Assembly: GCA_964036665.1 (NCBI GenBank)
Contig: OZ038530.1
Coordinates: forward strand, 17,754,001 to 17,818,000
Direction of reading: 5' to 3'
DNA from: Gordius sp. MW1
Lineage: Eukaryota; Nematomorpha; Gordioida; Gordea; Gordiidae
Length of the DNA stretch: 64,000 nt
In this document: piece by piece, positions 4,373 to 41,899 of the stretch
Numbering within the stretch: position 1 is the stretch's first letter
Layout: the number at the start of each line of letters is the position of its first letter
Notes under the pieces: model-generated
Told to the model about the DNA's origin: nothing
Seen by the model: only the letters and a program-made list of their open reading frames with translations
Databases searched by the model: none
Position numbers and translations under genes: made by a program

Positions 4373-4409
4373 AAGTAAATTAATTAATTGTTTGTAGGAA
4401 ACATTAGAA

Positions 4410-7400
4410 ATGGATGAATCAAAGTTATCAAAAATTCATTTAGCAGAGTTCAATGCTGAACTACATTCAATTGAGGATTATATATTTAATATGGAATCCA
4501 TATTGGAAATTAAAGGAATGGAGGCTACTGCATCAGTTAAGAAAAAGGTTCTTCTAGCTTTCATAGGGCTCAATACTATTAAAGAACTTAGACAATTACT
4601 TTACCCTACTAAGTTAAAGGATGCACAATATGAAGATATAGAAAAAATGTTATTCCTAAAATACCAACCCCCTCAGACTGTATTTGCTTCAAGATTTGAA
4701 TTGTTAAATATTACAAGACATAATGGTGAATCCATACTAGAATTAGTCAGAAGAATTAAAACATGTATTAGCAAATGTAATTACAAATCTGACATTGATG
4801 AACGTTGCAGGGACCATTTTATTTTTGCAATTAAGTTAAAGAGGCTAGAATTGGAGCTGAGGACCAAATTTCCTGACACCTTAGATGAAGTGGGTAATCC
4901 GTTAACTTTTGATAGGGTAATCAATATGGCTTTAACAATGGAGAGGGCAGATACCGAAACACAAGAAGAGAAAGAAGAAATGCTTTGTAAGATTAAACAT
5001 GAATCATTCTCTCATAATCAACGTGACCAATCAAATAAACATTTTGGAAAAACGGTAAGTTGCTCAAGGTGCCATAAAGAACACCCCAAATTTCGTTGTC
5101 CAGCGTTCAATGCCACATGCTACAAATGTAAAAGAAAAGGACATTTTGCCATTGGCTGTCGAAGTTCATTGAATCAGATTGTTGATTACGAATCTTCGGA
5201 TTCTGTAAACCGGATTGGGCAACATGCTAAACGTCTAACCATTACGGCGAGGCTTAATGGGCATCCGATTTCTATGGATTATGATACTGGAGCGCAGGTC
5301 TCCGTTATTAATGTTAAAGTATGGCAGCTTTTAGGGAGACCGTCGCTTCATGAATGCGCGATTCCCAAAGCCTATGGAAATCAACCCGTCGAAATAATGG
5401 GAAAAACTCATATGGTCGTGGAAGTCGGTCATAATTCGCACTATCTTTCGGCTGTAGTTACGAAATCCAAAGATGTACCCTTATTTGGGTTGCCCTGGAT
5501 TATTAAGTTTGGATTCCAAATTCCTAAAGAAGTTAAAATACATAAAATCAACCAGGAATTTGTGCAAAAGGAATCAATTAATCTCAACAAAGAGTTTCCA
5601 CTGGTATTCAATGAAACTCCTACCCATTTACAGGGATTTGTTGTAAAAATCATGCTTTTGGACGAAGCGAAACCTATTGCGATCCCGGCGAGAAGAGTTC
5701 CTTTCCCGTTACGGAAGCCGGTTGAACTGGAACTCAATAGATTGGTACAGTCAGGTATCATTGAAAAAGTGGATCCTAGTGTTAGTAAAATAACGTGGTG
5801 CACGCCGATAGTAAACGTTAGGAAGAAAAATGGCGAAATTAGAATTTGTGCCGATTTCAAGGTCACTCTTAACCCATTCATTCATAATGATCATCACATC
5901 ATTCCTACGTTTGACGACATAGCAGCTAAAATTCGGGATGGTTATTTATATACCAAAGTTGACTTACGTGATGCATACCTTCAACTACCAATTGCTCTGG
6001 AATGTCAGAATTTATTAACTATTTCCACACACGTCGGTTTTTTTAAATACAAAAGAATGCCATTTGGGTTATCTTGTGCGCCTTTGATTTTTCAGAGATA
6101 CATGGAGAGTATTTTGAGTGGTTGCAACCACACGGGTATTTATTTAGATGATATAATTATCACGGGCAAAGATTACCAGGATCATCTATACAATGTAAGG
6201 GAAGTACTGAGCAAGTTACAATCCGTGGGCATGAAAGCACAATTTTCAAAGGTCGAATTTTTGAAAAAATCTATCACTTTTCTTGGACACACCTTTGACA
6301 GTGAAGGTATCCACCCTTCAAGTGATAAAGTACGAGCCATCAAAGACTGCCCAGCCCCAAAGAATGTTAAGGAATTGCGTTCCTTTCTGGGCTTAATCAA
6401 TTATCATGAAAAGTTTATACCACATTTACATGGTATAATGGCTCCCCTACATAAATTAACTAGTATCAAATCAAAATGGTATTGGTCACAAACCGAGGAG
6501 TCGGTGTTTCAAAAGGTTAAAACTTTGCTATCGGAGCAGTCTACGTTAGTTCCTTATTCAAATGAGTTACCGCTGATCCTGGAATGCGACGCATCGGAAC
6601 ATGGATTTGGAGCGGTACTTTTTCACTTAATTGGCGATAATAAGAGGCCAATTGCTTACGCGTCAAGGACGTTGATTGATGGTGAGAAGCAATACGCATC
6701 AATCGATAGAGAAGCAAGGGCCTTAGTCTTTGGTATGGAAAAGTTTCATACTTACTTATCAGGTCGCAAGTTTGTGCTACGCACGGACCATAAACCGTTG
6801 GAAAGGATTTTTGGGGCTTCAAGGGAATTGCCCAAAATCAGCAATAACCGTTTAATAAGGTGGGCATGGAAAATGTCGGGGTATGATTATAAAATAGAAT
6901 ACATTCCTGGCAAAGATAACGGTTGTGCTGATGCCTTATCTCGTTTACCGGCCCCTGCCACGGAGTCCGATATGATCAATTTTTACAAAAGCAATTCGAT
7001 AAATAGTATTCGTCTTTTAAATCTACAAGATTTACACTTAACAGAGGAATTATTAATAAAGGAATCTCTCGTGGATACAAACTTAAAACTGTTAAAAAGA
7101 TTTATAGATAAAGGTTGGCCTAAAAGCAAAAAGGACCTCCACAAGGATATTCAAGTTTTTTTTGACAGGAAGAATGAGTTAGAGCATGACAAGGGAGTCA
7201 TTTTTGTAGACGGCCTGATAATTGTGCCGTCACGACTAAGGCATCAAGTCCTGTCAATAATTCACCGGGGCCATCCAGGGATCAATGCAATGAAATCGAT
7301 CGCCAGATTATATGTTTATTGGCCGCACATGGATAAGGATATTGAAAGGCACGTGCAGAATTGTGTGGGGTGCCAGAAAAATAGAAGTAATAGACCTGAA

Positions 7401-7849
7401 GTCCCTCTGTATTCTTGGAACGTAACTGAAAACCCTTGGGAAAGGGTACATTTAGATTATGCGGGGCCAGTTGACGGATATTATTGGTTGGTGGCGGTGG
7501 ATTCGTTTTCCAAATGGATTGAAGTAGCGCAGTTACGAAGTTCGACCATTCAGGTTACATTAAAGAAATTACGAGAGTGGTTTGCCAGATGGGGCGTTCC
7601 GAAACAAATAGTTACGGACAACGGACCCCAGTTTAGAAGCCAAGAGATGCACTTCTTTTGTGATCAGTATCATATTAAACACATTAAAACAACGCCGTAC
7701 CATCCAAAAACGAATGGACTCGTCGAAAGAGCCATCAGGACGTTGAAATCACGTTACGCAGCGGCGCGCGAATATAATGCGGACCCGGAAGTCTGCATGT
7801 TAGATGTCCTCCTTAGCTATCGCATAAGCGAGCATTCTTCAACCGGTAG
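4410..7849 (+). CDS. Ty3/gypsy Gag-Pol polyprotein, truncated in the integrase
   Basis: A single open frame encodes a gypsy-type polyprotein of the K02A2.6-like invertebrate group. Domains in order: Gag capsid region (residues 1-200); two zinc knuckles (CSRC... near 218 and CYKCKRKGHFAIGC at 237); aspartic protease with DTG at about 292; reverse transcriptase with YLDD at about 578; RNase H with ECDAS at about 726; integrase with an HH-CC zinc domain from about 952 and the DDE triad at roughly D1016, D1070 and E1106. Gag and Pol share one frame with no frameshift. The element's own reading ends near 7848. The last few codons before the stop at 7869-7871 read into inverted LTR sequence, so the integrase C-terminus is missing. 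No other internal stops are seen, so the copy is young. Confidence 0.92.
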
Positions 7850-8047
7850 TAGGTTAGAACATGAACGTTGACACAGGAATGAAACTAAACATTGATATTT
7901 ATTAGTTAGAACATGAACGTTGACACAGGAACTAAATTAATATGGTTGCCAACAATTGGGTACAAATCGATATATATTTGGTTGTTAATAGAATCAATGA
8001 GAGTTGTAATAACAATTGAAATAAGAATATAAAGTATCAACACAACA
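7850..8047 (-). repeat. Inverted LTR copy (3' LTR of the minus-strand gypsy fragment)
   Basis: Reverse complement of 4157-4354 over its full 198 bp. On the minus strand it is preceded by a purine-rich tract (about 8048-8060, polypurine tract position), so it is the 3' LTR of the fragment at 8069-9356. Its outer end abuts the plus-strand pol frame at 7849/7850. Confidence 0.85.
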
Positions 8048-8068: not shown

Positions 8069-9356
8069 CTAAATTTCTTCTATTAAACGGCTGGGGGGTT
8101 TCCTAATCCTTTCCGATTTCCTTAGGATGGTACTACTTTCTTGTTCTTGTTCGTTTGGTGTTGGACCAGAAGACATGTCGTCAGAACTATCATCTTCCCC
8201 CTCTTCCGGGACCTGAGGATCAACAATGCTTGCCCGATCTCTCAACTGATCACCATGTTTTCGCATGTTTTTGTTTCGCGTTTCCACTAGATAGGACCAA
8301 GGTCCGTTGCGTTTAAGAATCTTTCCCGCTCTCCACCCGCTATTCATTTCATTTTTTACCCATACCAATTGACCCGGAATGAATTCTCTCTTCGCCGCAT
8401 GCGCATCATGCCACTCTTCCTGTTTATCGATTTTTTGTTCCATATATTTCTTCTGAGTGGGACGTACCCAGTCCAACGCCGTTTTAACATTTCTTCCAAT
8501 TAATGCTTTAGATGGGGATCTACCGGTTGAAGAATGCTCGCTTATGCGATAGCTAAGGAGGACATCTAACATGCAGACTTCCGGGTCCGCATTATATTCG
8601 CGCGCCGCTGCGTAACGTGATTTCAACGTCCTGATGGCTCTTTCGACGAGTCCATTCGTTTTTGGATGGTACGGCGTTGTTTTAATGTGTTTAATATGAT
8701 ACTGATCACAAAAGAAGTGCATCTCTTGGCTTCTAAACTGGGGTCCGTTGTCCGTAACTATTTGTTTCGGAACGCCCCATCTGGCAAACCACTCTCGTAA
8801 TTTCTTTAATGTAACCTGAATGGTCGAACTTCGTAACTGCGCTACTTCAATCCATTTGGAAAACGAATCCACCGCCACCAACCAATAATATCCGTCAACT
8901 GGCCCCGCATAATCTAAATGTACCCTTTCCCAAGGGTTTTCAGTTACGTTCCAAGAATACAGAGGGACTTCAGGTCTATTACTTCTATTTTTCTGGCACC
9001 CCACACAATTCTGCACGTGCCTTTCAATATCCTTATCCATGTGCGGCCAATAAACATATAATCTGGCGATCGATTTCATTGCATTGATCCCTGGATGGCC
9101 CCGGTGAATTATTGACAGGACTTGATGCCTTAGTCGTGACGGCACAATTATCAGGCCGTCTACAAAAATGACTCCCTTGTCATGCTCTAACTCATTCTTC
9201 CTGTCAAAAAAAACTTGAATATCCTTGTGGAGGTCCTTTTTGCTTTTAGGCCAACCTTTATCTATAAATCTTTTTAACAGTTTTAAGTTTGTATCCACGA
9301 GAGATTCCTTTATTAATAATTCCTCTGTTAAGTGTAAATCTTGTAGATTTAAAAGA
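8069..9356 (-). CDS. Inverted gypsy Pol fragment: integrase with intact C-terminus
   Basis: The encoded protein matches the plus-strand copy residue for residue over the shared part (plus positions about 7012-7848). It then continues beyond that copy's break with a GPY/F-like integrase module (WVKNEMNSGWRAGKI...) and a basic, acidic-Ser-rich tail, ending at 8069. It holds the HH-CC zinc domain and all three DDE residues. It lacks gag, protease, reverse transcriptase and RNase H: at 9356 the element stops and repeat X begins. It supplies exactly the part missing from the plus-strand copy, but in opposite orientation, so the two cannot make one polyprotein. Confidence 0.9.
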
Positions 9357-9750
9357 ATTCATTAAAGCTACGATATATTATGTTAACAGATTTAATTTTT
9401 AATATAGTTACAAACTTATCTTAAAATATTGTATTTGAAAATTGCAATACCAGAATTGATCTTTGATATTGGAATAATTTCTATTCAATAGATATGTAAA
9501 AAATTGTAGGATTAAAGTGAAGCAAGAACTGTTCACCAAAAAAGCTAACGATCGGTAGCTTTCGTTAGCGATTGTAATTGTGACCGGTTGATACCTGACT
9601 TTAGAGAACTGCAAAGTCACTTTTTTTCAACCCGAACCCCACCTGAATTTTTTTTAAATTTGCAACCCGAACCCAAAAGCATTTTAAATTTTTTAGCCCG
9701 AACTTGACCCGACCCAAAATCATTTTAAAAATTTCAACCCGAACCCGACC
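9356..9750. repeat. Flanking repeat X, copy 2 (uninterrupted)
   Basis: Direct copy of 3762-4156. It continues past the gypsy insertion point into more CCCGAACCC-type words (to about 9810). Confidence 0.8.
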
Positions 9751-34444: not shown

Positions 34445-35035
34445 GAAAATTAGTTGTGAAAAAATTGGAATAACTTGCTGGAATGTTGAAACGTTGACGG
34501 GAAGGTGCATCTAGGTTGCGAAAATACTAAAAAGTAGAAGGTACAAATCGTTTGCCTACAGGAGACCGGTAAAACGGAACCAAAGTTCAGGAGTTAGGAG
34601 AAGAAACAAACTATTCTACAATGGGTCACCAAATTATATTAACTGTTGGTATCGTTCTAAGCGAATCGTACAAGGACAAAGGGTGGAATGGGTGAAGATT
34701 GCAAAACAAGGGGGTTTTCTAACCGTTATGTGCGTGAATGTTCCTTAATTGGGTGTATGGAATCAGAGAAAGACATATTCTTCGATTCATTGAAAAAGGA
34801 AACACAAAGAATCTGACAGGAAGAAAGGCTATTGGGGCAGATTTCAACGCTCACTCAGGGAAAGATCGCCTCGGGTATGAACGCAATCATGGAAACCATG
34901 GGCATGATCTGAAGAACAAAGAAGGGGAAAAACTCGTCCAAGTATCCCAAGCATATGACATGGCGATCGTTAACACCTGTTTACAAAAACGCGAAGATCA
35001 TATTGTGACTATAGAAGTGGGAAGCAGTTTAGTCC
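34445..35035 (+). pseudogene. RTE/BovB-type endonuclease fragment
   Basis: A readable frame from 34738 contains IGADFNAHSGKD and, later, YDMAIVNTCLQKREDHIVT. These match the IGADFNGHVG and MAVVNTxFxKREEH motifs of the apurinic endonuclease domain in RTE-type elements. Upstream (34450-34730) the same domain continues in shifted frames (for example ITCWNVETLTGR), so several indels have hit it. The copy stops where a CCCGAACCC array begins. Confidence 0.75.
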
Positions 35036-35190
35036 AGGGGTTTGTCCTGAACCCGAACCCCTGAACCCGAACCGGGTAAAACCCGATGTTTTACAGAACC
35101 CAAACCCGAACCCATTTTTAAAAATACCCTTAAAACCCGAACCCGATGAATACAAAAAAGGGTTCGGGTTCGGGTTTTTAATTCAAAAAT
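35036..35190. repeat. CCCGAACCC array with inverted end
   Basis: Words such as CCTGAACCCGAACCG and AACCCGAACCCGATG run rightward and then recur in reverse as GGGTTCGGGTTCGGG, giving a short hairpin. It is the same word family as in repeats X and R1. Confidence 0.6.
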
Positions 35191-35473
35191 ATATTGTGAA
35201 TTGAATATCTCAGTTTTCTCTATCATGCATGACAATGTAACGAAAACCATACGATTGTAATTTCAATATTTTTATGTAATTTATAATATGGTATGGCTTT
35301 TATTAATTATATTTTTATTGCTTTTAAATCCAAAAATAAATTAGAGCATTAAAAATTCAATAAATACATATGCACAATGAGATGAAATAATTGGCATGTG
35401 AATTTAATTAGGTGCTATTTAAAAATTAAGTTAACTATATAATTTTTTGAAGGTAAAAATGTATTATTAGTAT

Positions 35474-38015
35474 TGTCATATACTTATGACTACTACTTCT
35501 GGAATTTCCGGTGTTCGAAGGTTCAAACAAGGGTATTATCGATGCCAGGTGGTGGAAATTTACTAATCGGCGTATCAAAGGCACTGTGAAAGTTCTGAAG
35601 AAGGGAAAACAATAAAAGCATGTTTGGCGGCGCAGGATAACTCAAAGATATGTCTAGAAAGGAAAGGGTTATAAAATCGAGTCTCGGCAGTGATGGCTCC
35701 GAAATCGATTCCAGACGAAGGGTTATAAAATCAAGTCTCGGAAGTGATGGCTCCAAAATCAATGCCAGACGATAAAGGCAGATAAAGTCGATCGAGCGGA
35801 ACGGATACGCCTCATGGACTCGATAGAATATATAAGCAAGTTAAAAACGACCAGAAAAACACACTTTTACTTTTTACTCGCTCTCGTACTTTTACTTACG
35901 CTTGTTCTTGTCCATGTTTACGCTCGATGCGCCCATAACTTACTTGTATTTTTCCCCCGCCTGAGATAACCGTTTGTATTGCACATATTATTTCCTGTGG
36001 ATTAAATTGTATGGTAGTTTACGCATAACCAAATATTAGATTGTCGAAAGTGGTCCCCCAAATCCCCTTTCGCACATTTATTATTACGCTGATTGTCGTC
36101 ATTTGGAGGAATTCTTATAATAAAATTCTGTCATAAACTGGTGGCTACTACTATATTACGCTCAGGATCATTTGTTGAGGAATTCTCAGTTTGTTAGTCC
36201 GTTCAAACGTACAGTGATATTGGTCCCCAGTTCTCAAGGCTTAGCCTCCGAAACCAACCGTCCCCACAAATCAACCCCCCGAACTTGACATTGGTGCCCC
36301 GGAGATTGATTGGACTTATAAAAGAAGGAGACTTATTGCCGCGGCAAGAAATTTCGAACAAGTCGTTAACTCGCAGCTTCTAAAAAAAAAGGGAGAAAAA
36401 GGCTGGTAAAATTTTATTTTAAATGTATATTTGAGGTAAATTTGTATGATTTTTATTAAATAAGTTTTTTTGTGATTTTATTGATATCATTGATTGTCAA
36501 TTTTAAGACTTATATCCTTAAATGTTTGATAAAAATAATTTTAAACTTTATTTAAAGCATGTAATGAGCAATTTATTTGAGTATATAGAGTATGATGTCG
36601 GAGGATTTCAACCGAGGTACCAAGAGGACTGTTGCTGAGCTGGAGGGACTTTTTCTAATGCTCTTCGGGGGGATGTTCCTGTAAGTAAAGAACCAATGTT
36701 TGGTTGGGGATGACTCCTATCTTCTTAGCTAATTTCAAGTATTCTGCCGCGGTGGTTATATTAACAGCTGGTTTGAATTCTGGGGTGGTCATGTTAGACA
36801 TATCCGCCAAGAAGCTAGATAAGACCGACTCGAAGTCAGATCTGTAGTCCGGGCATGAGGTGTATTGTTTAAGGTGAGGGGATTTTGCAAGAGTGGAGTT
36901 CTTAAGGATTGTTTTCGCAAAAGACCCAGCTCTCCCTAAGAAGTGGAGGTAGTCGGAGTCATTATAATCAGGCTTCTCAAATTCCTCACCAGTGTGAGAG
37001 CACAAATAGCGACCTCCCATGTGTTACTTGGCTGGGTACGCTAAAACTTCTTCGACCGCAAACCTGAGTTCTGCAAATTCCGCCACTGCTGGGCAGTACA
37101 TTGCATAAACAGATGAGAGCAATCTTTTCCCGATTTCGTAAGCTATGAATAACCTGGCAGTTCCTGCTGGGTTGCTCTTTGTCCTCAAGGAGACGTCCTC
37201 GGTCCCAGCTACGTTAGCAGTTGGAGCGACAACTGGGTCGACTGGTGCCAAGCCACCGATTCCCAATACTCTAAGGACTCGTCTAGTTGATATCCAGTGT
37301 CCTATAGTATGGATGGTTTTGATATATCCGCTGTAACCTCCAATGCTAGTCCCGAATCGGGCAGAGAAGGTCTTCTTTACGTATGAGGTCTCGGAGTCAG
37401 GAGTCACACCGGAGTGATGATTCTCCTTCCAAAAGCAGACCTTAGTGGCTACCATTAGAGAGAGATCGTTAACCAGGTAATTTGGTTCGATGGCTTGGTT
37501 CACGAGTTGTTCAAAGCCACGTAAGTTGGAGGTGTCTATTGACCCTGAATGATATACCCAGTCGCCATTAGGGGTTCCTAGGATACGTGCATCTTCACCT
37601 GCTGGCTTCCGGATGTAGCCATCTCCTGGGATTTCATCGATCTCTTTTGGCATGAAAGTTTCGGTAGTAACCGCTCGTTTCTTGATCCCAAGGAGTCGTG
37701 AAAGGGGGACATCATCTTCGGGAGCTTTCCTTTTCGCAGCAAAAGCGTGAGACACTGTGGGTGCCAGATCCTTGTAAGCTGCTAGATCCTCTTCTGCTTC
37801 CCTTGCTTTCTTCTTCTCTCTTCTTTAATCTAGCAGCGACGGTCTGTTCATCAGGGGCGTAGGGATTGATACAAATGAGACCGGTTTTAAGGGCAACACA
37901 GGATGCAGCTATTTTTATCTGGAAGATATGGTTATTGATCTCAGTTTGGCCGCGGAGCTCGCCACGGAGGATTTCTGATGCAATCCCTGTGATATCTGTG
38001 GGGGAATCAAGGTAG
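35474..38015. repeat. Left arm of a 5.17 kb near-perfect palindrome
   Basis: Reverse complement of 38099-40643. By eye the arms differ at only a handful of places: a stop-making change at 37026, Asn/Asp in the nucleoprotein-like gene, single substitutions near 35900 and 36312, a 4-base CTTT indel near 35580, and one-base indels near 36457 and 35500. That is well above 99% identity. The arm contains a nucleoprotein-like gene on its inner side. Its outer side has two 52-bp direct repeats and LTR-like sequence with a primer-site-like TTGGTGCCCCGGAG at 36290. Confidence 0.92.
36290..36400 (+). other. Primer-site-like motif and short leader after LTR-like sequence (left arm)
   Basis: TTGGTGCCCCGGAGATTG is followed by a short open stretch beginning with IDWTYKRRRLIAAARNFEQ. 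This could be the start of an LTR-element gag after its PBS; the mirror copy is at about 39720-39825. No complete LTR could be delimited, so this is tentative. Confidence 0.3.
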
Positions 38016-38089
38016 ACCAACGGAACCCTCAGCGCCGGTGTTGCTACAGGTGCCGACGGTGAAATTGCCCCCCACCTTAAGCTCCACAT
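36655..38089 (-). pseudogene. Endogenous viral element: nucleoprotein-like gene, left copy (broken)
   Basis: Three open pieces: 37712-38089, 37024-37755 (frame-shifted relative to the first) and 36655-37020 (after an in-frame TAA at 37024-37026). Compared with the right copy it has a unique 5' extension in the palindrome loop, the shared frameshift, and one additional nonsense change. GC content is clearly higher than in the neighbours, and there are no introns, which suggests capture from a virus. I read it as a nucleoprotein of a negative-strand RNA virus, tentatively chuvirus-like. It might instead be a gag-type protein of an unknown retroelement. It makes no full-length product as it stands. 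Confidence 0.55.
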
Positions 38090-38098
38090 CCCCTTGGA
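38016..38098. other. 83-base loop of the palindrome
   Basis: The only unique sequence between the arms. It carries the extra 5' codons of the left viral-type gene. The junctions are at GGTAG|ACC (38015/38016) and A|CTACC (38098/38099). Confidence 0.85.
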
Positions 38099-39459
38099 CT
38101 ACCTTGATTCCCCCACAGATATCACAGGGATTGCATCAGAAATCCTCCGTGGCGAGCTCCGCGGCCAAACTGAGATCAATAACCATATCTTCCAGATAAA
38201 AATAGCTGCATCCTGTGTTGCCCTTAAAACCGGTCTCATTTGTATCAATCCCTACGCCCCTGATGAACAGACCGTCGCTGCTAGATTAAAGAAGAGAGAA
38301 GAAGAAAGCAAGGGAAGCAGAAGAGGATCTAGCAGCTTACAAGGATCTGGCACCCACAGTGTCTCACGCTTTTGCTGCGAAAAGGAAAGCTCCCGAAGAT
38401 GATGTCCCCCTTTCACGACTCCTTGGGATCAAGAAACGAGCGGTTACTACCGAAACTTTCATGCCAAAAGAGATCGATGAAATCCCAGGAGATGGCTACA
38501 TCCGGAAGCCAGCAGGTGAAGATGCACGTATCCTAGGAACCCCTGATGGCGACTGGGTATATCATTCAGGGTCAATAGACACCTCCAACTTACGTGGCTT
38601 TGAACAACTCGTGAACCAAGCCATCGAACCAAATTACCTGGTTAACGATCTCTCTCTAATGGTAGCCACTAAGGTCTGCTTTTGGAAGGAGAATCATCAC
38701 TCCGGTGTGACTCCTGACTCCGAGACCTCATACGTAAAGAAGACCTTCTCTGCCCGATTCGGGACTAGCATTGGAGGTTACAGCGGATATATCAAAACCA
38801 TCCATACTATAGGACACTGGATATCAACTAGACGAGTCCTTAGAGTATTGGGAATCGGTGGCTTGGCACCAGTCGACCCAGTTGTCGCTCCAACTGCTAA
38901 CGTAGCTGGGACCGAGGACGTCTCCTTGAGGACAAAGAGCAACCCAGCAGGAACTGCCAGGTTATTCATAGCTTACGAAATCGGGAAAAGATTGCTCTCA
39001 TCTGTTTATGCAATGTACTGCCCAGCAGTGGCGGAATTTGCAGAACTCAGGTTTGCGGTCGAAGAAGTTTTAGCGTACCCAGCCAAGTATCACATGGGAG
39101 GTCGCTATTTGTGCTCTCACACTGGTGAGGAATTTGAGAAGCCTGATTATAATGACTCCGACTACCTCCACTTCTTAGGGAGAGCTGGGTCTTTTGCGAA
39201 AACAATCCTTAAGAACTCCACTCTTGCAAAATCCCCTCACCTTAAACAATACACCTCATGCCCGGACTACAGATCTGACTTCGAGTCGGTCTTATCTAGC
39301 TTCTTGGCGGATATGTCTAACATGACCACCCCAGAATTCAAACCAGCTGTTAATATAACCACCGCGGCAGAATACTTGAAATTAGCTAAGAAGATAGGAG
39401 TCATCCCCAACCAAACATTGGTTCTTTACTTACAGGAACATCCCCCCGAAGAGCATTAG
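38094..39459 (+). pseudogene. Endogenous viral element: nucleoprotein-like gene, right copy (one frameshift)
   Basis: Two overlapping open frames: 38094-38402, and the longer one to 39459 (366 residues from 38359). The frameshift falls after the stop at 38287-38289 of the second frame, most likely in the purine-rich run that follows. The same shift is present in the left arm, so it predates the inversion duplication. The long frame has a basic N-terminal part (AAKRKAPEDD), an aromatic-rich middle and a helical C-terminal half, ending EEH. The size and lack of introns fit a viral nucleoprotein; there is no signal peptide or membrane span. Where the left copy has a stop, this copy has Tyr (39088-39090). 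Family assignment is by impression only. Confidence 0.55.
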
Positions 39460-40643
39460 AAAAAGTCCCTCCAGCTCAGCAACAGTCCTCTTGGTACCTC
39501 GGTTGAAATCCTCCGACATCATACTCTATATACTCAAATAAATTGCTCATTACATGCTTTAAATAAAGTTTAAAATTATTTTTATCAAACATTTAAGGAT
39601 ATAAGTCTTAAAATTGACAATCAATGATATCAATAAAATCACAAAAAAACTTATTTAATAAAAAATCATACAAATTTACCTCAAATATACATTTAAAATA
39701 AAATTTTACCAGCCTTTTTCTCCCTTTTTTTTAGAAGCTGCGAGTTAACGACTTGTTCGAAATTTCTTGCCGCGGCAATAAGTCTCCTTCTTTTATAAGT
39801 CCAGTCAATCTCCGGGGCACCAATGTCAAGTTCGGGGGGTTGATTTGTGGGGACGGTTGGTTTCGGAGGCTAAGCCTTGAGAACTGGGGACCAATATCAC
39901 TGTACGTTTGAACGGACTAACAAACTGAGAATTCCTCAACAAATGATCCTGAGCGTAATATAGTAGTAGCCACCAGTTTATGACAGAATTTTATTATAAG
40001 AATTCCTCCAAATGACGACAATCAGCGTAATAATAAATGTGCGAAAGGGGATTTGGGGGACCACTTTCGACAATCTAATATTTGGTTATGCGTAAACTAC
40101 CATACAATTTAATCCACAGGAAATAATATGTGCAATACAAACGGTTATCTCAGGCGGGGGAAAAATACAAGTAAGTTATGGGCGCATCGAGCGTAAACAT
40201 GGACAAGAACAGGCGTAAGTAAAAGTACGAGAGCGAGTAAAAAGTAAAAGTGTGTTTTTCTGGTCGTTTTTAACTTGCTTATATATTCTATCGAGTCCAT
40301 GAGGCGTATCCGTTCCGCTCGATCGACTTTATCTGCCTTTATCGTCTGGCATTGATTTTGGAGCCATCACTTCCGAGACTTGATTTTATAACCCTTCGTC
40401 TGGAATCGATTTCGGAGCCATCACTGCCGAGACTCGATTTTATAACCCTTTCCTTTCTAGACATATCTTTGAGTTATCCTGCGCCGCCAAACATGCTTTT
40501 ATTGTTTTCCCTTCTTCAGAACTTTCACAGTGCCTTTCTTTGATACGCCGATTAGTAAATTTCCACCACCTGGCATCGATAATACCCTTGTTTGAACCTT
40601 CGAACACCGGAAATTCCAGAGTAGTAGTCATAAGTATATGACA
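38099..40643. repeat. Right arm of the 5.17 kb palindrome
   Basis: Reverse complement of 35474-38015. The outermost shared word is AGTCATAAGTATATGACA; beyond it the flanks differ (ACCTCATTTTTTT at right, CAATACTAATAATAC at left in the same orientation). The 52-bp tandem pair (GGAGCCATCACT...ATAACCC) is at about 40360-40450. Confidence 0.92.
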
Positions 40644-41057
40644 CCTCATTTTTTTTTTTTTTGATTGGAGCGTGGTCGTAAAAATTGCTAAAAGACGGGT
40701 GTGCTGTCTGAAGATGGCCCTTGTCACTTGTGCACGGCCGTACCCTCCACTCCAACCTCATCCTTACACTCTTTTTATCTTAGTTAGTTTTTGGGTTCCT
40801 GCTCTTAGGGTTCATTTCTCCACGAACGTTGATGTACCATATCTAAATAAAATAAATTAATGCTGCTCGACCCCTTACTCAGGGTCGAGAGTTATGGCGT
40901 CACCACCGCTCTAGATTTTTATACTACGCACATACTCCGAAAAACCATTTCTAAATTACTTTATTGCACGCTTTTAATTCAAATATATATTTTAGAAGAC
41001 AGCAATTACATGCATATAAGAACATTATTTTTACAAAAATAAAACAGCCGCCGTAGT

Positions 41058-41531
41058 TTATGTTTTAAGCTCCCAAAGGCCCCACCTCCCAACTTCTTGC
41101 TCACGCCCACCAATCTTCCATTCCCGCAATAACTTAATCAAATATTCGATTCGACCTTTCGCCGCCTCCGTCTTCATCTCCTCGGGCAGGGTTTCACACC
41201 AAATTTGTAGTCTATTGAAGGCTTCGCACACCTCACCCTCTGACGCGTCGGTTTGTGTTGCTACCTCTTTACATTTCTGTATATTCTTTTCCCTGGCCAC
41301 TTGCGATTTTATCCATAGTTTCCTAACTTTGCGGTTACTGGCCCTCTTTCCCCTTATCCTCCGCGGGCATTCCTTCCACTCATGCATGTCTCGTTTATTG
41401 CACAGATAGCACACGGTCCCCGTTATATTGACGGCCTCCCAATACGGACATTGTTGGGATTCGTGGTCGTACCTCAAACATAGTCTGCACTTCATCTGTA
41501 TCTTTATATTATCGAATACGCGCACTCCCAA
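41058..41531 (-). pseudogene. Retroelement Gag-like fragment with two zinc knuckles
   Basis: The 157-residue frame has CRLCLRYDHESQQC (CX2CX4HX4C) and CYLCNKRDMHEWKEC (CX2CX5HX4C), then a basic stretch and a helical C-terminal part. Tandem CCHC fingers of this kind are usual in Gag or ORF1 proteins of retrotransposons. There is no adjoining polymerase. It may start further upstream; the first Met is not a secure start. Confidence 0.5.
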
Positions 41532-41679
41532 ACGAGATATTGTCTAAAACTCAAAAGGACTTGGAAACCCGCAATCGTTTCTATAAGTTATGATCGATAT
41601 AAAAGTTCAACATTACATATAAAATTGATATTTATTTATTAGATCCCGTTAATGGTGTGCAAAAATCCCTAATTTTGCT

Positions 41680-41899
41680 ATGCCCCACCCTCATTAGGCT
41701 CTGCCCCACCCTAATTAGGCTCTGCCCCCCCCTCTCCGGATAGCCGAGACCTTTTTTTCTTGCTCTCATTAAAATTTTAGAGGAAAATTTTTGGATTTGG
41801 ATAGCCGAGACCTTTTTTTTTTGCTGTCAGGAAAATTTTAATAAAAATTTTTTTTTTTAATCTGCCCCCCCCCTAATTCAAAACTTGGCTACGCCCATG
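41680..41899. mobile_element. Partial MITE of the GGGCGTAGCCA family
   Basis: Right end ACTTGGCTACGCCCATG is clear, preceded by CTGCCCCCCCC and a duplicated GATAGCCGAGACCTTTTTTT word. The left end is decayed. Confidence 0.6.

Follow-up and report, generated by a model that had tools for sequence, protein, structure and literature searches.

A near-perfect palindrome in a host chromosome

We analyzed a 64-kb stretch of DNA (the window, meaning the whole stretch analyzed; C4:17754001-17818000, on the 24.1-Mb contig C4 of a 211.8-Mb genome in 12 contigs) that contains a near-perfect palindrome, built from parts of a Ty3/gypsy long terminal repeat (LTR) retrotransposon and two head-to-head copies of a gene resembling a qinvirus nucleoprotein (N). 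Its left arm (35474-38015, 2,542 bp) and right arm (38099-40643, 2,545 bp) are inverted around an 83-nt loop and differ by four substitutions (35902/40212, 36310/39804, 37024/39090, 37569/38545), a divergence of 0.16%, and by four indels (at 35497, 35577, 36382, and 36450). This architecture, which a first-pass annotation of the letters had claimed and which we found as described, is far beyond chance. DNA searches of the same genome identified the outer 1,120 bp of each arm as the 5′ end of an LTR retrotransposon (family A) and not as viral; element homology in the left arm stops at 36593, and the sequence inward of that point is viral. These searches returned no further close copies of the viral part beyond the two arms. 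The features, in window coordinates, are as follows.

35029..35473, + strand: left flank, a copy of a dispersed host repeat that the insertion breaks at 35473 (long matches at other places share 85-94% identity and mostly extend to 35473)
35474..36290, + strand: left LTR of family A, 817 bp, U3 outside, TATATAA at 35829, directed inward (rightward); assigned from dispersed family A matches
36291..36593, + strand: primer-binding site (named by position) and leader of family A, extending 303 bp beyond the LTR, to position 1130 of copy E31
36594..38015, - strand: left qinvirus-like nucleoprotein gene copy, antisense to the left LTR; frames 36655-37023, 37024-37824, and 37712-38098, with an extra TAA at 37024
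38016..38098, + strand: loop, which encodes the N-terminal part of the right copy; its ends share a 6-of-7 microhomology (38017-38023 / 38091-38097)
38099..39520, + strand: right nucleoprotein gene copy; frames 38016-38402 and 38290-39459, with the frame break as in the left copy
39521..39823, - strand: leader and primer-binding site of family A in the right arm, by sequence match to family A
39824..40643, - strand: right LTR of family A, 820 bp, directed inward (leftward), from family A matches
40644..41666, - strand: 3′ internal end of family A, outside the palindrome on the right; equals 5523-6541 of copy E31 and is cut at 41666
about 40644-40662, - strand: polypurine tract adjoining the right LTR, named by position
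41667..41733, no strand: right flank, a 21-bp tandem repeat, with no target-site duplicate of AGTAT

The 1,023 bp at 40644-41666 are joined to the right LTR in the same way as in full-length family A copies. On the other side, the host repeat continues beyond the breakpoint in the three copies read (L052-L054: ...AGTAT or GGTAT, then AATA..). Dispersed repeats lie on both sides of the insertion in contig C4, placing it in a host chromosome, as is required of an endogenous viral element (EVE). The palindrome's two LTRs are inverted and not the direct repeats of a Ty3/gypsy provirus, which makes it a derivative rather than a normal provirus. We also considered, and rejected, a foldback DNA transposon or miniature inverted-repeat transposable element: the arms consist of LTR, leader, and viral gene, whereas those of such an element would be its own terminal inverted repeats.

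Near-perfect palindromes are a known type of artefact, which could arise from a fold-back read, a missed adapter, or a haplotype join, and the first-pass annotation had named a foldback artefact as what would overturn its reading. That concern is largely answered: the two sides have different, biologically sensible flanks, the left arm stops exactly where the LTR does, and its partner on the right runs on into the element's 3′ DNA, none of which a missed-adapter read is expected to give. Eight differences also separate the arms, and we regard an assembly or library artefact as highly improbable.

The cargo is a qinvirus-like nucleoprotein gene

Each arm encodes a 128-aa and a 389-aa frame separated by a frame break common to both arms; in the left arm, the 389-aa frame is broken again by the additional TAA at 37024. 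The gene has a GC content of 48-50%, compared with 24-34% at 30-34 kb of the window, which confirms the earlier description of a higher-GC gene with a shared frameshift and one extra stop on the left. The shared break and the extra TAA are sequence decay of the kind that marks an EVE.

Searched as is, the 389-aa frame matched one unnamed protein (P0001, 30% identity; 5,670 candidates scored, from a collection of 5.8 billion). A profile to which two more relatives contributed led to P0010, a protein of Sanxia Qinvirus-like virus 1 (E 6e-82), and direct comparison of N with P0010 gave 40% over 217 aa. P0010 is named "Nucleoprotein" in UniRef and "hypothetical protein" at NCBI. Excerpts of one study describe, in an Anurida qinvirus, a 1,729-bp small segment for a putative structural protein (PMC6955108). 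We take the viral gene to be the nucleoprotein of a small qinvirus segment like that of Anurida, P0010 being a nucleoprotein by its UniRef name. Unnamed contigs also proved related, as did host proteins of Formica fusca, Bemisia tabaci, and Gordionus. When the nucleoprotein was searched against Pfam and PDB sequences, no usable match emerged, the few names listed being unrelated and weak (E 0.1 or worse), and of 87 stretches in IMG/VR viral contigs that fit a pattern, 0 were confirmed; neither the scored candidates from the protein collection nor the viral contigs included a near-identical virus. A chuvirus, nyamivirus, or rhabdovirus origin, as listed by the first-pass annotation, was also considered, in a comparison that included no reference sequences of those groups; the sole named virus match is a qinvirus.

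By this homology the palindrome's cargo is identified as an EVE from a qinvirus-like virus, which supports the earlier suggestion of a nucleoprotein-like gene from a negative-strand RNA virus. The annotation had also named placement of the protein in a retroelement family as something that would overturn its reading; this turns out to be half true, since it applies to the carrier, which is a retroelement, and not to the cargo, which is viral. Gypsy gag as the source of the N frame was rejected, because N lies in antisense orientation relative to the elements and its match is a viral protein.

The carrier is a Ty3/gypsy retrotransposon

The family A LTR (817 bp) starts TGTCATATAC and is followed by the primer-binding site and leader. 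With the first 917 bp of the arm as query, at least 40 matches were found in the genome (86-100% identical, both arms counted; a lower bound by the search tool's own statement), and 38 of the 40 listed start at LTR base 1, the remaining two at bases 3 and 8. Three copies, of 7.29-7.37 kb, were taken as full length, and a fourth has an internal deletion. In copy E40, the polymerase frame contains Pfam reverse transcriptase, RNase H, and integrase domains and has Ty3 Gag-Pol as its best solved-structure match (7q5b, E 5e-71). Full copies combine LTR, primer-binding site, polypurine tract (the latter two assigned by position only), and Ty3-type reverse transcriptase and integrase, the composition of a Ty3/gypsy element. 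Exact 5-bp target duplications flank 9 of the 12 family A loci in which both ends were compared (fetched loci missing one end were left out), L038 among them; the other three are L031, L034, and L040.

Two observations concern gypsy-related frames in the window. The 3′ internal part of family A beside the palindrome holds a 161-aa cysteine-rich frame (41061-41543, - strand) with no Pfam match at E 0.001. Two more gypsy pol frames, at 4398-7871 and 8069-9358 in opposite orientation, form another inverted pair; near the integrase region they have a long protein stretch in common that seems identical.

The palindrome's LTR pair differs at 1/816 sites, against 0.25-1.67% in the LTR pairs of 12 other family A copies; it is thus the youngest-looking of those examined, or has been kept alike by gene conversion. 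Its single-copy neighbor (40644-41666) carries 10 private substitutions in 1,021 sites, the two palindrome LTRs share 7 private ones, and 10 other family A copies have 1-15 over the equivalent of 40644-41666. This pattern is suggestive of gene conversion between the arms but does not prove it, and a diverged source copy explains the private substitutions equally well. The frame break that the arms share either dates from the birth of the palindrome or was spread by later conversion.

Parallel loci in the same genome

Three other N-like loci (L046, L047, and L048) were found, two of them, not L048, recovered by a search with P0010; of the four in the genome, three are with Ty3/gypsy elements. 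L048 (L048:3901-9133; C1:16.186-16.191 Mb) lies between direct LTRs of a second family, family B, that are 97.8% identical, and reads LTR, host mRNA piece, antisense N, inverted element piece, pol, LTR. Its host mRNA piece has had a GT..AG intron removed and matches C8:17.69 Mb at 97-98%. L048 is the product of several template switches in one Ty3/gypsy copy, in which spliced host mRNA and viral RNA were captured within a single element. At L046 (L046:4180-5722; C1:26.32 Mb), antisense N is attached to the 3′ end of a family B element; its N pieces are out of order, with the N-terminal piece beside the element's 3′ end and then the gene body. L047 (L047:4182-5468; C3:18.26 Mb) has an open 428-aa N frame, and the 9.9 kb fetched there showed no element of family A or family B beside it; the frame is either a gene that has been retained or an insertion of recent date. 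In 3/3 retrotransposon contexts, N runs antisense to the adjoining LTR or element, a number of events (n = 3) that cannot separate selection from mechanism.

A further parallel comes from family A itself. L038 (L038:455-6034; C7:2.724-2.730 Mb) is a copy whose second LTR is inverted, running from the U5 end (within one base) to U3 base 1, and which is flanked by the 5-bp target duplication GTTAC. Given this structure, polypurine-primed plus-strand copies ending at U3 base 1 appear to integrate in family A.

Probable origin by template switching and snap-back

The loop gives the palindrome a direction. It shares 73% nucleotide identity over 81 bases with the N strand of the independent EVE L046, and its frame (TNGTLSAGVA..) is in line with the right copy; the corresponding L046 frame (TNGTLSASVA..) lies eleven codons past a possible start. 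Because the loop is collinear with the right copy, the right arm appears to be the original and the left its copy. The left arm moreover terminates at LTR base 1 and resembles what snap-back copying of a chimeric plus-strand cDNA would yield. Assignment of the loop to the left copy was rejected, as the paralogues L046-L048 place it in the right one.

An origin by retrotransposon reverse transcription with fold-back is highly probable. The reading that we favor, with a probability of about 0.75, is that the palindrome is an EVE made by a Ty3/gypsy retrotransposon through fold-back cDNA of a virus-retrotransposon chimera, and we consider it well supported. The parts, their order, the junctions, and the collinearity of the loop can be read in the DNA; from them we infer the order of steps. 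Plus-strand DNA (read on the - strand) would have covered the 3′ internal region, polypurine tract, LTR, primer-binding site, and leader, and ~300 bases after the LTR a template switch would have led onto qinvirus-like nucleoprotein RNA, copied as antisense. Viral copying would have ended at a point 11 codons after the possible start codon in the related L046. The 3′ end of the plus strand may then have folded back, CCGTTGG pairing with CCAAGGG at 6 of 7 bases, and copied its own strand back to U3 base 1, the start site of polypurine-primed plus strands. The resulting palindrome, with its U3 terminus outward on the left, would have inserted into the host repeat, the right side being cut at 41666 at birth or later.

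Several points weigh against this reading. The snap-back pairing includes one mismatch, and the next base is mismatched as well (38016/38098). The palindrome has no target-site duplication (AGTAT on the left, CCCTA on the right at 41667), and its right end at 41666 falls within the element, so that integration was irregular or a deletion followed. All chimeric elements observed could also be inert relics. A later inverted duplication at the DNA level is a less likely alternative: a single chimera insertion (internal 3′ end, LTR, leader, antisense N) would have been inverted afterwards by break repair or replication fold-back. The snap-back microhomology fits replication-based inversion too, as do the missing target duplication and the irregular right end. 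However, the copy terminates on LTR base 1, where a random break would fall about once in 2,500, and the inverted LTR of L038 formed before integration, as its GTTAC duplication indicates. We consider such a duplication unlikely and retain the fold-back origin.

Predicted hairpin RNA and the immunity reading

The palindrome would most likely act through RNA. Since both LTRs point inward, transcription would give a hairpin. RNA from the TATA at 35829 or its mirror would read antisense N, loop, and sense N, and the long hairpin RNA (hpRNA) could be cut by a host small-RNA pathway. The 810 nt around the loop have a predicted minimum free energy of -779 kcal/mol, compared with a mean of -238 for 10 mononucleotide shuffles, supporting the earlier proposal that a transcript across the locus would fold into a long hairpin. 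The 2.54-kb, highly complementary arms form the inverted repeat that characterizes hpRNA loci. Poly(A)-like signals in the LTR at 36001 and 36119 might end transcripts early. We put at even odds that the palindrome has ever been transcribed; that it gives small interfering RNAs (siRNAs) or PIWI-interacting RNAs (piRNAs) is rather doubtful, and that it protects against a virus is very unlikely.

A working hpRNA or piRNA immunity locus, selected against a qinvirus, would concern the use of the palindrome and is compatible with its fold-back origin. The inward LTRs, the slight divergence of the arms (0.16%) and of the LTR pair relative to other family A copies, and the consistent antisense orientation of N are in its favor, as is the report, in the part of the source consulted, of piRNAs from putative endogenous viruses outside arthropods (PMC6085071). 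Yet recent birth also predicts high arm identity, and with three events the orientation bias could be mechanistic; selected antiviral use is therefore given little credence. In its widest form the idea is that a copying error wrote an inherited hpRNA gene, whose two inward LTR promoters would produce long double-stranded RNA (dsRNA) of the qinvirus-like N gene and hence RNA interference, and that repeated antisense capture by two Ty3/gypsy families would constitute a retrotransposon-run antiviral memory, in an animal with a non-insect-like telomere repeat. We regard this as improbable.

Exact matches to (TTAGGG)5, overlapping ones counted, number 24,188 in the genome, against none to (TTAGG)6 or (TCAGG)6. 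Insects mostly carry TTAGG telomeres. TTAGGG telomeres make an insect host unlikely; a Dicer-siRNA route is therefore not to be taken for granted, and the arthropod setting that the first-pass annotation had drawn on is not supported.

Two observations on mitochondrial sequence stand apart. The 14.8-kb contig C12 is mitochondrial by COX1 and reads with TGA = Trp. Outside it there are 23 COX1-like nuclear matches (on C1, C3, C4, C5, and C8; several may be pieces of one insertion), of which 20 are above the family cut-off and one is nearly full length (C8:2829490).

Significance and comparison with known systems

The palindrome is probably a base-level record of an LTR retrotransposon turning an RNA virus gene into host DNA by template switch, fold-back, and integration. 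By its shape it is also a candidate hpRNA gene, offering a single-locus test of EVE action via dsRNA, beyond a role as a piRNA source.

The joining of lymphocytic choriomeningitis virus with the mouse intracisternal A-particle is reportedly a case of chimeric cDNA integration. As in the LTR-retrotransposon/RNA-virus chimeras covered by excerpts of PMC5497376, viral RNA has been joined to LTR-element DNA, by proposed template switching, and integrated. The palindrome differs in being a putative self-complementary snap-back product, with both LTRs inward and a qinvirus-like virus as partner. The same excerpts report that mosquito viral integrations give mainly antisense piRNAs, not 21-nt siRNAs, and that Ty3/gypsy elements are enriched around them. 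According to parts of PMC6085071, putative endogenous viruses give rise to primary piRNAs in starfish, sea anemone, and dog whelk, canonical antiviral siRNAs not being seen in that study's animals.

Excerpted work on Ty3 (PMC5371799) describes a polypurine tract that primes more than once and dead-end (+) strong-stop DNA that accumulates; such by-products would explain ends at U3 base 1. By contrast, those excerpts do not describe for Ty3 what is proposed here, namely that a chimeric plus strand folded back and was copied into a palindrome that is now inherited. The Drosophila simulans Nmy/Tmy hpRNA loci are likewise inverted repeats that match another sequence, and their hpRNA is processed by Dcr-2/AGO2 into siRNAs (partial text of PMC10292708); the palindrome, a candidate hpRNA locus, would instead have been built by a retrotransposon from a viral gene.

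Qinvirus-like genes within animal genomes have precedents: an endogenous qinvirus RNA-dependent RNA polymerase fragment is reported from the ant Camponotus floridanus (excerpt of PMC6540820), and another study counts the qinviruses with the clades that have arthropod EVEs (excerpt of PMC6955108). In contrast to that polymerase fragment, the present four loci, three of which are with Ty3/gypsy elements, extend the qinvirus fossil record by nucleoprotein-like genes. Judged by titles and abstract openings, no report of an LTR-flanked palindromic EVE was found in the open literature among the matches listed. What is known, then, is the retrotransposon-captured EVE; what is new is its palindromic form, its inward LTRs, and its qinvirus-like nucleoprotein cargo.

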